Source of the DNA: Siccirubricoccus sp. G192
GTDB taxonomy: Bacteria; Pseudomonadota; Alphaproteobacteria; Acetobacterales; Acetobacteraceae
NCBI RefSeq assembly: GCF_019084075.1
Contig: NZ_JAHREN010000001.1
Span: 4,552,501-4,616,500, forward strand
Length of the DNA: 64,000 bases
Reading direction: 5' to 3'
In this document: positions 59,965-64,000 of the stretch, piece by piece
Layout of the letters: every line of letters begins with the position of its first letter
Numbering within the stretch: position 1 is the first letter of the stretch
The notes under the pieces: generated by a model
The model's database searches: none
Told to the model about the DNA's origin: nothing
What the model saw: only the letters and a program-made list of their open reading frames with translations
Translations under genes and position numbers: made by a program

Positions 59965-61294
59965 GCGATGACGCCGCGCCGCAAGGCGCCCCGCGCAGGG
60001 TGACAGCCGCGGCGGCCGTGGTGCAGGCCATTCCGGCGGTTCGCCGCCGCCTGCCGCGCGCCATCGCCTGGCCAAGGCAGCGCCCGCGCGCGCTGTTCCA
60101 GGGCTGGGCCGTGGTGGCCGGCGCATTCCTGGTGACGATGGTGGGCTACGGTGCCGCCTATTCCTTCGCCGCCTTCGCGCCGGATCTGGAGCAGGCTTTC
60201 GGCGCCTCCCACGCCTCCGTCAGCCTAGTCTACTCGCTCTGCGGCTTCACCGCCTTCACGGTCAGCGCCATCAGCGGCCCGATCGCGGACCGCATCGGCC
60301 CGCGCCTGCTCGCGGCCATGGGCATGCTCATGGTCGGGACCGGCCTCGTCTCGGCCGGCGGCGCCACCAGCTTCGCCGAGGTGCTGCTGTGCTATGGCCT
60401 GCTGATCGGCATCGGCATCGGCTTCGCCTATGTGCCGGCGATCGCGGCGGTGCAGCGGTGGTTCGTTGTCCGGCGCGGACTAGCCTCCGGCATCGCCGCC
60501 TGCGGCATCGGCGTCGGCACGGCGCTGGTGCCGCCGGCGGCCGCGCTATTGGCGCGCATCGGAGACTGGCGCACCGCCTTCGTGATCTCCGGCGTGCTGG
60601 CGGGGCTGGTTGGCCTCGGCGGCGCGCTGCTCCTGGCCCGCTCGCCGGAAAGCCGGGGCCTGCATCCGGATGGCGCGCGAGCCCCGCCCCCGTGCCGCCG
60701 CGGGATTGCGCCCCGGTGCGCGAGGTGCTGCGCAGCCCGGGCTTCGCCCGCCTCTATGGCGCCTGCTTCCTGGTATCGGTGCCGGTAGGCGTGCCCTTCG
60801 CGCATCTCGCCGCTTTCGCGGAGGCGCAAGGGGTGCCACGCGGCGAGGCGCTGTCGCTCCTCGGCCTGATCGGCCTCGGCTCCATCGGCGGCCGCTTCGT
60901 CCTCGGGGCGCTGGCGGACGAGGTGGGGCGGCGGCAAACCTTCCTCGGCTGCTGCTGGGGCGTGGCGGCCGCCACCCTCTGGTGGGCGGTGAGCGGAACG
61001 GGGCTTGGCATGGCGGTCTTCGCCCTGGCGTTCGGCGTGCTCTATGGCGGCTTCGTGGCGCTGCTTCCGGCCTTCGCCGTGGACATCTTCGGCCGTCGCG
61101 CCGCGGGGGCGGTGCTGGGGGCCCTCTATACCAGCCGTGGCCTCGCATTGCTCGTCGGGCCGCCTCTTGTCGCGGTCCTCGCCGCGCTGGGCCGGACCTC
61201 TGCCCTGCCCATTGGCGTCTGCGCCTGCGCGGGCGTAGCCGGCGCGCTGCTGATGAGCAGGGTGCGGCCTTCGCCTGGCGAGGCCACCGGCTGA
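59961..61294 (+). CDS. Major facilitator superfamily transporter, frameshifted
   Basis: This is a 12-helix transporter of about 444 residues. The first half (from FQGWAVVAGAFLVTMVGYGA to LVGLGGALLLARSPESRG) and the second half (from VREVLRSPGFARLYGACFLV to GVAGALLMSRVRPSP) are in different frames. They meet in the central loop at about 60680-60692, where one missing C in a short C-run restores a normal loop. The conserved loop after helix 2 is GPIADRIGPRLLAAMG, and helix 7-8 has LGALADEVGRRQTFLG. It resembles oxalate/formate and monocarboxylate-type MFS proteins. It is coupled to the preceding hydrolase-like gene. Confidence 0.86.
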
Positions 61295-61350
61295 CCTGGT
61301 CGGGTGATCCCCTGTCCGGTTCCGAGACGCATCGGCCCGCCTCGTATCTT

Positions 61351-61395
61351 CGGCCCGATTCAGACCTCCGGGCCATGCGGCCCTGCGGTCATCGG
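61351..61395. repeat. Palindromic intergenic repeat, copy 3
   Basis: This is the same 45-46-base unit as at 18854 and 18909, in the same orientation and with the same nested arms, differing only at its last base. It again lies between two convergent genes, six bases before the stop of the HdrB-like gene. Confidence 0.8.
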
Positions 61396-61401
61396 CCCGC
61401 C

Positions 61402-62250
61402 TCACGCCGAGGGCGGCTTCCGCAGTTCCGGCTCCACCAGGCGGGTGAAGACCACCTCTCCCGCCGCCTCGATCCCTGCCGCGCCCACGGCGGCCCGCGG
61501 GTCGGGGGCGTTGCGCCAGGCCTTGTAGTCGTCCTTATAGGGCCAGCCCGCGGCCTCGGCCAGCAGGTGCACCCAGTTCACCACGCGGATCGGGTGAGTC
61601 TGCTCCAGCGCCACCGCCTCCCGGTGGCAGGAATGGAAGAGGGTGCAGAGCGTATCGGCGCCGCACTCCGCCATGGCCGCCAGCGCCGCCCGCTGCGCAT
61701 CCGCCAGCGCGCCGGGCACGCCGACCAGGCCGGAACACATATGGCCCGGCGCCCGGCAGGGATGCTCCAGCACCGTGAGGCCGGGGATGAGGCGCAGCAG
61801 ATCCGGCGCCAGAGTATTCACCGGCACCCGCGCATCGAAGCCGTGATGCGCATGCAGCAGCACCCGGGCCCGCACCGGATGCACCAGCAGCGGTCGCAGC
61901 CGCTCCCGCGCCGCATGCAGCACCTCGGAGACATGGGTGGTGGTGAAGGCGGTCGGCGTCACCGGCGCCATGACATCCTGCATGTTCATGTGGCAGGAGG
62001 GGCACCAGGTAATCACCTGGCCATGGCCGGCGGCGTTGAACTTCTCCACGGTGCGGCGGCCCATGCCCTCATTGATCCGGGCATTGGACTCCTTGGGCGA
62101 GCCGCAGCAATGCGCGGGGCCGCCGGCCGGCGCGGCCTGCACGCCCGCCACCTCCAGCAGCCGCGTGGTGAGGCGGATGATCTCGCCATGCCGCGCCATG
62201 TTGCAGCCGTACCAGAATGTCGCAGGCGCGGGGTGCATCGTCACAGCCAT
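61402..62250 (-). CDS. Heterodisulfide reductase subunit B-like (CCG domain) Fe-S protein
   Basis: This 282-residue protein has two cysteine-rich CCG-type domains. In the first, FWYGCNMARHGEI, AHCCGSPKESNARI and TWCPSCHMNM give the C...CC...CxxC pattern. The second has LEHPCRAPGHMCSG and LFHSCHREAV. Such domains bind non-cubane 4Fe-4S clusters in HdrB and related oxidoreductases (GlcF, LutA, GlpC). The start at 62250 overlaps the end of the HdrC-like gene by 10 bases. It is probably the electron-transfer half of a flavin- or PLP-linked oxidoreductase. Confidence 0.82.
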   Translation of the reverse strand: MAVTMHPAPATFWYGCNMARHGEIIRLTTRLLEVAGVQAAPAGGPAHCCGSPKESNARINEGMGRRTVEKFNAAGHGQVITWCPSCHMNMQDVMAPVTPTAFTTTHVSEVLHAARERLRPLLVHPVRARVLLHAHHGFDARVPVNTLAPDLLRLIPGLTVLEHPCRAPGHMCSGLVGVPGALADAQRAALAAMAECGADTLCTLFHSCHREAVALEQTHPIRVVNWVHLLAEAAGWPYKDDYKAWRNAPDPRAAVGAAGIEAAGEVVFTRLVEPELRKPPSA

Positions 62251-62648
62251 TGCGCCTGCTCCTCCTCGGTCATGGTGAGGCGTGCGAAGGCCTTCACCCG
62301 GGGCGAGAATTGCGTGTCCTCGCGCACCGGGATGCGCGGCGCCTCGCCCAGCGCGCCGCGCACGCGCATGCCGGCCAGGCGCAGCATGAGCGCGGCGTCG
62401 ATGCGCTCCGGGCAGGCGGCGGTGCAGAGGCCGCTTTTCGTGCAGGCGCCGATCCAGGCCAGCGCCTCCGGCGTGCCCGGCCCGTCCCGCAGCACATCCC
62501 GCATGCCCGCCGCCACCGCGCCCGGCGCCGCGGCATCCACGCCGGCGGCATAGGGCGTCATCGGGCAGGCGCGGACGCATTCGCCGCAGGCGGAGCAGAG
62601 CGCCGCCAGCCGCGCGGATTCGCCGCGGATATGCTCGGCGAGACTCAT
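62241..62648 (-). CDS. 4Fe-4S ferredoxin-type protein (HdrC-like)
   Basis: This 135-residue cytosolic protein has two four-cysteine motifs, LCSACGECVRACPMTPY and CTKSGLCTAACPERID, as in HdrC and the N-terminal part of GlcF. It would relay electrons to the HdrB-like protein encoded next. The ATG at 62648 overlaps the stop of the RidA gene (ATGA), and its end overlaps the HdrB-like start. All four genes of this operon are therefore tightly coupled. Confidence 0.85.
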   Translation of the reverse strand: MSLAEHIRGESARLAALCSACGECVRACPMTPYAAGVDAAAPGAVAAGMRDVLRDGPGTPEALAWIGACTKSGLCTAACPERIDAALMLRLAGMRVRGALGEAPRIPVREDTQFSPRVKAFARLTMTEEEQAQWL

Positions 62649-63028
62649 GTCTTCGGGCTCCAGACCGCGACACCCTCGATCTCGATGCGGCTTGCCGTGG
62701 TGGTGGATTGCGCGCCGCCGACGCAGGTGCTGGCGGGCGGCGTGGCAAGCTCGGCGAAGGCGTGGCGGCGCGCCGCGTCGAAGCCGGCATAGTCGCGCAT
62801 GTCGGCGAGCCAGGTATTCACCTTCAGCAGGTCCTGCAGCGAGGCGCCCTCGGCGGCCAGCGCCCGGCCGAGCCGCGCGAAGCACTCCGCCGCCTGCGCC
62901 TCCACGCCCTCCGCTTCCGCGGCGCTGCCGCGGGCAGTGACGCCGGAGCAGAAGATCAGCTTCGCGCCGCCCGGCAGCGGCACCACGCGGGCGGGGGAGA
63001 AGGCGGGCTTGCTGGGCGTGTCATTCAT
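62645..63028 (-). CDS. RidA family protein (enamine/imine deaminase)
   Basis: This 127-residue protein of the YjgF/YER057c/UK114 family forms trimers and hydrolyses reactive enamines/imines such as 2-aminoacrylate. Visible markers are LIFCSGVTARG near residue 25, LQDLLKVNTWLADMRDYAGF, and the C-terminal STTTASRIEIEGVAVW with the conserved arginine. It lies between a D-serine-dehydratase-like gene and Fe-S protein genes, which fits clearance of an imine made by the PLP enzyme. Confidence 0.9.
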   Translation of the reverse strand: MNDTPSKPAFSPARVVPLPGGAKLIFCSGVTARGSAAEAEGVEAQAAECFARLGRALAAEGASLQDLLKVNTWLADMRDYAGFDAARRHAFAELATPPASTCVGGAQSTTTASRIEIEGVAVWSPKT

Positions 63029-63054
63029 GCGACGTCTCCTGTTTGACCTGCTGG

Positions 63055-64000
63055 CTACCAGCCGTTCACCCGGTCCCAGACCGCGATGACCTCCTGCCCG
63101 CCCTCCACCACATGGTAGCGGTCATGCGCCGCGGCGGTGAGGCAGGTATGATTGGGCGCCACCCGCACCAGGGCGCCGATGGGCAGGCGCTCGAAGGGCA
63201 AGGGACCGTCGCCCTGCACCTCGCCATGCTCCTGATGCGTGCGCGTCAGGATGGCCTCGCCGAAGCTGCGCCTGCCCTCGCGGTCCAGCATCAGGCCGAA
63301 GCCGTAGTCCTTCGGCGCCTTTTCCGTGCTGCGGTCCTTGGAGAGCGCCAGCGCGCCTGCATCCAGCAGCACCGCGTTGCGCTCCGGCTTGCGGCCGATG
63401 ACGCTGGCCAGCACCGTCACCGCGATGTCCTGGGCCGCATGGGTGCCGAGCTGCGCCTGGAACAGGTCGCCGAACATATAGACCCCGGCCCGCACCTCGG
63501 TGACGCCGGCCATGCTGCGCCCATGCAGCGCGGTCGGCGAGGAGCCGAGCGAGACGATCTCCACCCGATGCCCCGCCGCGCGCAGCCGTTCCGCCGCGCG
63601 CACCACGCCGGCGCGCTCCGTCTCCGCCACCGCCACCATGTCCTCGGCGCTGCGGCCGAGATAGCTGTGGCCGGCATGGGTAAGCACGCCCGCCAGGCGC
63701 GGGCCGAGCGCGGCGGCGATGGCGAGCAACGCGTCGCTTTCCGGCGTGACGCCGCCGCGGCCCTCGCCGATATCCACCTCGATCAGCGCCCGCAGCGGCC
63801 CGGGATGCGCGGCGATGGCGCGGGCGGACTCGGGATCATCGGTGATGACCTTCACCTCCGCGCCGGCTGCGTTCAGCGCGGCCACGGCATCCAGCTTCCG
63901 CGGCGTGATGCCCACGGCATAGATCTGGTCGCGCCAGCCGCCTTCCGCGAAGTAGCGCGCCTCGGCCAGGGTGCTGACCGTGATGGGGCCGCAATCCGGG
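63055..64000 (-). CDS. D-serine dehydratase-like (DSD1/alanine racemase N-terminal) PLP enzyme, partial
   Basis: The gene enters from the right edge, so its N-terminus, including the PLP lysine, is outside the window. The visible 314 residues include QIYAVGITPRKLDAVAALNA, LIEVDIGEGRGGVTPES, VLTHAGHSYLG, RVEIVSLGSSPTALHG and VTEVRAGVYMFGD of the fold III barrel. The C-terminal metal-site motif is RVAPNHTCLTAAAHDRYHV. Family members are D-threonine aldolases, D-serine dehydratases and 3-hydroxyaspartate aldolases. It heads the operon with RidA and the two Fe-S proteins. Confidence 0.88.
   Translation of the reverse strand, partial: PDCGPITVSTLAEARYFAEGGWRDQIYAVGITPRKLDAVAALNAAGAEVKVITDDPESARAIAAHPGPLRALIEVDIGEGRGGVTPESDALLAIAAALGPRLAGVLTHAGHSYLGRSAEDMVAVAETERAGVVRAAERLRAAGHRVEIVSLGSSPTALHGRSMAGVTEVRAGVYMFGDLFQAQLGTHAAQDIAVTVLASVIGRKPERNAVLLDAGALALSKDRSTEKAPKDYGFGLMLDREGRRSFGEAILTRTHQEHGEVQGDGPLPFERLPIGALVRVAPNHTCLTAAAHDRYHVVEGGQEVIAVWDRVNGW

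Follow-up and report, generated by a model that had tools for sequence, protein, structure and literature searches.

Proteins with CCG and ferredoxin domains serve as subunits of hydroxy-acid oxidases, for example GlcF, and the function of CCG or HdrBC proteins is usually assigned through a flavoprotein partner. Here we describe a locus of Siccirubricoccus sp. G192 in which such a pair, an HdrC-like ferredoxin and an HdrB-like CCG protein (hereafter HdrC and HdrB), is encoded behind a DSD1-like pyridoxal 5'-phosphate (PLP) enzyme and a Rid-family protein. The four genes lie at the right edge of a 64,000-nucleotide stretch of DNA, the window, which spans positions 4552501-4616500 of contig C1 in a genome of 5.96 Mb. 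We tentatively place them at the 3' end of an operon that is conserved in Acetobacteraceae and would degrade a β-hydroxy amino acid, free or in bound form and perhaps dicarboxylic, with HdrC-HdrB as an optional iron-sulfur (Fe-S) unit.

Several described systems share part of this gene set. The heterodisulfide reductase HdrABC of methanogens has in common with it the HdrB fold, an adjacent HdrC-like ferredoxin, and a complete N-terminal CCG site; the operon differs in that only C172 and C208 remain of the C-terminal CCG site, Ser72 replaces a cysteine of HdrC, and no HdrA gene is present among the scanned proteins. GlcF and the Bhc enzymes presumably provide a further family tie, with a DSD1-family enzyme, a threonine-synthase-like PLP enzyme (PALP), and HdrC/CCG Fe-S domains acting in one metabolism. 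A link between glycolate and the β-hydroxyaspartate cycle (bhcABCD) is drawn in a section of PMC11323563. Unlike GlcDEF with bhcABCD, the Siccirubricoccus locus is without GlcD and encodes HdrC and HdrB by separate genes. The β-hydroxyaspartate cycle was rejected as an identity for the locus because the scores on the BhcC 3-hydroxy-D-aspartate aldolase model NF045642 (108.5 bits for DSD1, cut-off 690) and on the BhcB model (67.1 bits, cut-off 550) fall far under the cut-offs and GlcD is absent from the locus.

We take LutA, from the LutABC system of L-lactate utilization, to be a CCG protein without a recognized flavoprotein subunit, as is HdrB here. The fold is common to both, and the operon differs by the absence of a LUD protein from those scanned, LutB and LutC being the LUD-domain proteins of that system according to a passage of PMC3924224. 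Mycobacterial EtfD also has the CCG fold; it is a membrane protein altered at the N-terminal CCG site, whereas the C-terminal site is altered in HdrB. Part of PMC13083937 describes EtfD as joining electron-transfer flavoprotein (ETF) to menaquinone and DgcB as thought to take electrons from ETF. The D-threo-3-hydroxyaspartate dehydratase of structure 3wqc shares the PLP lysine and the His/Cys metal ligands with the operon DSD1, and the RidA proteins E. coli YjgF (1qu9) and TdcF (2uyj) share family PF01042 with the operon Rid, which differs by a serine in place of an arginine. Every operon gene belongs to a known family. No report that brings together heterodisulfide-reductase proteins and an enzyme of this type was found in searches of the open-access literature, subscription papers being outside their scope.

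Organization and conservation of the operon

The original prediction that HdrB-like, HdrC-like, RidA-family, and DSD1-family PLP genes overlap or nearly touch was borne out. All four genes are present on the minus strand and may be co-transcribed in the order DSD1, Rid, HdrC, HdrB, with a gap of 26 bp between DSD1 and Rid, an ATGA overlap between Rid and HdrC, and a 10-bp overlap between HdrC and HdrB (Table 1). Past the window edge, upstream of DSD1, are genes for a DUF427 protein, an M81 metallopeptidase (PF07364, 1e-76), and the PALP enzyme (2e-69), and further upstream a divergent M20 peptidase (PF01546) followed by a TctC receptor. The Pfam scan around the operon covered ten frames, two of which gave no match and are probably not genes.

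To place the grouping in other genomes, contigs were scanned with an alignment of seven HdrB orthologues, and 80 loci were kept of 123 relatives, mostly from Acetobacteraceae with a few from Burkholderiales (some genomes appear in L024-L029 and again in L037-L116). Synteny was scored from same-strand tblastn matches at distances of up to 6.5 kb. Sixty loci were informative, having 4.2 kb or more of sequence upstream of HdrB; the other 20 were dropped for too little upstream sequence. HdrC is found upstream of HdrB in all 60 loci, DSD1 in 36, PALP in 33, M81 in 27, Rid in 19, and an SDF-type symporter in 8. Both DSD1 and Rid are present in 11 loci, DSD1 without Rid in 25, Rid without DSD1 in 8, and neither in 16. 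The original prediction had staked the association on its recurrence elsewhere, and these counts uphold it. The four-gene grouping exceeds chance, since other genomes, with HdrB of ~52-77% identity, show the same order. DSD1 linkage persists down to 52% HdrB identity, and on the HdrB tree of the 60 loci the DSD1-linked state can be explained by 5 changes, whereas shuffled labels need 19 on average. Because of this clustering on the tree and the presence of DSD1 in 36 of the 60 loci, we consider the linkage of DSD1 with HdrC-HdrB to be conserved, not obligate.

In 8 of the 60 loci the SDF (sodium:dicarboxylate) symporter gene stands between DSD1 and HdrC, which suggests that the substrate could be dicarboxylic, for example 3-hydroxyaspartate. 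Five Belnapia-type loci with the symporter and without a detected Rid are listed in Table 1.

The M81/PALP/DSD1 core also stands as a separate unit, common in Acetobacteraceae. Among 20 fetched DSD1 loci without adjacent HdrC-HdrB, PALP lies beside DSD1 in 16, only M81 in 1 (L162), and neither in 3. At 21 DSD1 loci without adjacent HdrC-HdrB, inspection by eye of as many as three downstream genes revealed no substitute oxidoreductase recurring beyond close relatives; two of these loci, L189 and L190, have in common a glyceraldehyde-3-phosphate-dehydrogenase-like gene. Several genomes among these 21 loci encode HdrC-HdrB elsewhere.

Co-occurrence was also surveyed at the genome level in 100 genomes, comprising the source genome and 99 relatives. 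HdrB was detected in 14 of them, with an orthologue at 57-72% identity in 6 relatives, and DSD1 was detected in 45 at 1e-20, with an orthologue of at least 61% identity in 27 of 59 same-family relatives. All six HdrB-bearing same-family relatives have the DSD1 orthologue, compared with 21 of the 53 others (Fisher p 0.007, not corrected for kinship). We then considered 31 hand-chosen genomes in which HdrC-HdrB was not seen beside DSD1. Left out of this set were L059, whose genome (G047) was already in the 100-genome survey, together with loci such as L042, L045, L052, L058, L078, and L100, whose upstream sequence is very short; within the set, the upstream contigs of L048, L061, L073, L075, and L086 are short and linkage is unreadable there. 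A DSD1 match of some kind is present in 29 of the 31 genomes with apparently unlinked HdrC-HdrB. The 23 alphaproteobacterial genomes include 20 with a full DSD1 orthologue (61-85% identity), one with a partial orthologue (78%), one with a weak match, and one with none, so that genomes with HdrC-HdrB mostly keep DSD1 even when the two are unlinked. The HdrC-HdrB family itself is rare: a single search of 398 phylum-wide genomes at 1e-30 detected it in 2, one being the source genome, and among plasmids the only relative was a remote match in Ilyobacter (24.5%).

Predicted properties of the DSD1-like and Rid proteins

The DSD1 frame, read past position 64000, encodes an Ala_racemase_N domain (PF01168, 1.3e-25) and a D-ser_dehydrat domain (PF14031, 4.6e-20). 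The closest solved structure is 3wqc, with a full-length match at 4.8e-74, followed by 3llx (4.7e-67), an unpublished structure of a predicted aldolase or racemase, and by D-serine dehydratase (4.4e-49). The best match to a D-threonine aldolase was at 3.8e-26 and that to hydroxyaspartate aldolase at 1.4e-23. The PLP lysine and a His-x-Cys pair expected of a dehydratase metal site are kept in all 77 DSD1 sequences aligned. As given in part of PMC4401734, the metal ligands are His/Asp in D-threonine aldolase and His/Cys in chicken D-serine dehydratase and 3llx. Since 3wqc is the closest structure, the predicted metal site is of the His/Cys type, and the BhcC score is far under its cut-off, DSD1 appears likelier to be a dehydratase than an aldolase. 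A dehydratase would release an oxoacid and ammonia, and its own reaction would therefore pass no electrons.

Rid was aligned with MMF1, E. coli YjgF, and TdcF, and the motif PAST was found in place of PARS/PTRS. Ser100 occupies the position of the RidA catalytic arginine (Arg105 of TdcF), and serine is present there in all 25 rows of the alignment. The score on TIGR00004 was 36.4 bits, below the cut-off of 106.25, and the match to 1qu9 was weak (4e-5). A passage of PMC4433059 presents the catalytic arginine as essential for imine hydrolysis and gives serine at that position in ~10% of RidA-subfamily proteins. Judged from its sequence, Rid is unlikely to work as a classical imine deaminase, and the proposal that RidA handles imines in this operon loses its main support because serine stands in for the needed arginine.

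Cluster motifs and predicted fold of HdrC and HdrB

HdrB belongs to the CCG family, scoring 40.7 bits on PF02754 against a curated cut-off of 20.6. In an alignment of 59 rows the N-terminal cysteine site is complete and the C-terminal one, judged by eye against the HdrB cysteine pattern, is degenerate, so the motif C..CC..CxxC is present once rather than twice. We take C86, assigned by eye, to be at the place of the HdrB bridging cysteine. HdrC has the motifs CxxCxxCxxxCP (C18-C28) and CxxSxxCxxxC (C69, S72, C75, and C79); the seven cysteines are invariant in 35 of 35 rows, and S72 is present in at least 90%. HdrC thus carries a full cluster motif and a second with three cysteines, and HdrB a single complete CCG site, predicted to be of the noncubane type.

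The predicted model of HdrB (mean pLDDT 88.7) superimposes on HdrB 8rwn_B with Z 21.1 and rmsd 2.5 over 234 aligned residues at 20% identity, on LutA 9a6l_A with Z 20.1 and rmsd 2.7 over 219 residues, and on EtfD 9ojn with Z 17.7 and rmsd 3.0 over 222 residues. The Pfam scan of HdrC and HdrB gives 4Fe-4S and CCG matches alone and no membrane domain, transmembrane helices not being tested. The ten scanned frames around the operon contain neither an HdrA flavoprotein gene nor a LUD domain; for HdrA, the other loci were checked by gene calling and BLAST only.

In the convergent gap 3' of HdrB, the minus-strand RNA has a predicted folding energy of -52.6 kcal/mol (z -2.19), which was equaled or bettered by 4 of 200 shuffles, and a terminator there is possible.

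Table 1. Coordinates of the operon genes, their motifs, and features at related loci. Positions without a locus or contig prefix are those of the window.
Feature	Position	Strand	Properties
DSD1/D-threo-3-hydroxyaspartate dehydratase-like PLP enzyme	63055..64000	minus	start past window edge; stop codon at 63055
DSD1, full frame	L007:3556-4662		368 aa
DSD1 predicted metal ligands H338 and C340	63142..63150 (codons H338-C340)	minus	77/77 sequences
Rid-family protein	62645..63028	minus	127 aa; Ribonuc_L-PSP PF01042, 3.9e-16
HdrC-like ferredoxin	62241..62648	minus	135 aa; 4Fe-4S dicluster PF13237, 6.9e-9
HdrB-like protein (CCG family)	61402..62250	minus	282 aa; CCG PF02754, 2.6e-10
HdrB N-terminal CCG cysteines C16, C48, C49, C83, C86	within 61993..62205	minus	invariant, 59/59 rows
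HdrB C-terminal CCG remnant C172, C208	61627..61737	minus	C172 in at least 90% of rows; C208 in all rows
Convergent gap 3' of HdrB	61294-61402		possible terminator
FMN dehydrogenase/GMC oxidoreductase genes, Roseomonas-type	L067:6505-9437, L081:6198-9244, L084:2423-5355, L087:6505-9437, L088:6505-9437		Pfam checked on L081
SDF symporter, Belnapia-type loci without detected Rid	L024:9775-11070, L039:8246-9532, L041:8221-9507, L049:8171-9457, L051:8273-9565
HpcH/HpaI aldolase, TctC (by eye), and DLD-type FAD oxidase neighborhood, source genome	L131 (C1:4842000-4852000)

Candidate redox partners and alternative explanations

A GlcD/DLD-type flavoprotein had been suggested as a possibility beyond the right edge of the window, where the sequence past position 64000 holds the DUF427, M81, PALP, M20, and TctC genes instead. 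An arrangement in which HdrC-HdrB carries electrons to the respiratory chain from a flavoprotein oxidizing a hydroxy acid or a D-3-hydroxy amino acid seems to us decidedly improbable. The source genome has genes for five FAD-oxidase_C proteins at other sites. One of these genes shares its neighborhood, a possible site for the HdrC-HdrB partner, with HpcH/HpaI aldolase and TctC genes. Other CCG proteins are encoded in the genome too, and the oxidases have these at their disposal, one being GlcF-like by eye. Relatives of the five were found in none of 94 loci (HdrB loci and fused relatives) by tblastn at 1e-8, with positive controls that worked in that the queries find each other's loci, the FAD3 query being out of frame in its second half. 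Other flavoprotein families, seen from gene lists without a systematic search, provided no consistent partner. The best support for a flavoprotein link is an FMN-dependent dehydrogenase of the 2-hydroxyacid type (PF01070, 2e-117) with a GMC oxidoreductase (PF00732, 8.8e-53), whose genes immediately precede HdrC-HdrB in the same orientation at 5 of the 94 loci. When the two proteins were used as queries, matches were confined to those five loci and were all >92% identical; this group lies away from the DSD1 operon, and its close relatives on the HdrB tree carry Rid or other genes in that place. The oxidative electron route of the original prediction keeps this pair in its favor and is otherwise mostly unsupported, given the dehydratase metal site of DSD1, whose enzyme type catalyzes no oxidation, and the absence of a GlcD-type partner.

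Acceptance of electrons from ETF in the manner of EtfD, for transfer to another acceptor, is unlikely. It would accord with the fold match to EtfD, with the ties of EtfD and DgcB to ETF in PMC13083937, and with an acyl-CoA dehydrogenase gene seen by eye near 2 of 8 fused HdrC-HdrB loci (L031 and L034). It sits poorly with the Pfam result on membrane domains and with the opposite placement of the altered CCG site in EtfD, and no ETF gene was noticed beside HdrC-HdrB, no model search for ETF having been made. Rather unlikely, too, is a flavin-independent oxidoreductase in which the single HdrB-type cluster, its bridging cysteine retained, reacts directly with a thiol, a disulfide, or a hydroxy acid made in the pathway; if true, the heterodisulfide-reductase site would be used outside methanogenesis, sulfur oxidation, and lactate use. 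It is doubtful, though conceivable, that HdrC-HdrB takes no part in the pathway and is a passenger, a redox pair of general use that happens to lie behind the operon in some lineages. The pair occurs in several unrelated settings, its neighbors there, for the most part identified by eye, including argH-like, asd-like, phosphonate, and HpaI aldolase genes. In addition, the core operon is often present where the pair is not, and the linked state takes few changes on the HdrB tree. Against a passenger stand the overlapping reading frames in the window, the persistence of linkage at low HdrB identity, and the retention of DSD1 in most genomes with unlinked HdrC-HdrB.

The reading that we tentatively prefer, an amino acid degradation operon with HdrC-HdrB as an optional unit, could work as follows. 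The M20 and M81 hydrolases would release the amino acid, and the PALP enzyme together with the DSD1-like metal/PLP dehydratase would strip water and ammonia from it to give an oxoacid. HdrC-HdrB would most likely serve the operon pathway by relaying electrons or by a redox step at a thiol or hydroxy acid; its donor or acceptor may be encoded elsewhere in the genome, or no flavin may be needed. A number of observations weigh against this reading. The PLP chemistry of the operon requires no redox step, and the DSD1 substrate is deduced from distant homologues. No DSD1 lies upstream in 24 of the 60 HdrB loci, and DSD1 occurs in 21 same-family relatives that lack an HdrB orthologue, which makes HdrC-HdrB dispensable for the core. 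Co-occurrence of DSD1 and HdrB is confounded by kinship and genome size. The 8 Burkholderiales genomes among the 31 have a DSD1 match of only 50-52%, in 7 of them, and none of PALP, M81, and M20 lies beside it in those 7 neighborhoods (four read gene by gene). In Burkholderiales HdrC-HdrB follows an HpcH/HpaI aldolase gene, a second setting of the same Fe-S pair, and the FMN dehydrogenase/GMC pair, as a flavoprotein link, also counts on this side.

HdrC-HdrB is a narrow family in a conserved operon and without a GlcD-type partner in 94 neighborhoods. Identification of the substrate would show the role of an HdrB-type cluster in amino acid metabolism and would help to assign a function to the M81/PALP/DSD1 operon.

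Other genomic settings of HdrC-HdrB

In Burkholderiales an HpcH/HpaI aldolase gene directly precedes HdrC-HdrB at 7 loci (L108, L109, L110, L111, L112, L113, and L116), and TctC genes often precede the aldolase, which was checked by Pfam on L112 only. Single-chain HdrC-HdrB fusions of ~420-440 amino acids, with an HdrB part 29-34% identical, are encoded at L031, L033, L034, L035, and L036; no neighbor common to the fused forms was seen at eight loci, of which L199 and L030 have unreliable gene-called frames. Phosphonate (phn)-looking genes, recognized by eye, lie 3' of HdrB at L067, L071, L074, L077, L081, L084, L087, and L088. At L081 a PhnN-like frame, named by eye and without a Pfam match, begins 17 bp after HdrB, and a Pfam match was obtained for a DUF1045 protein of the same phn-type group (L086).

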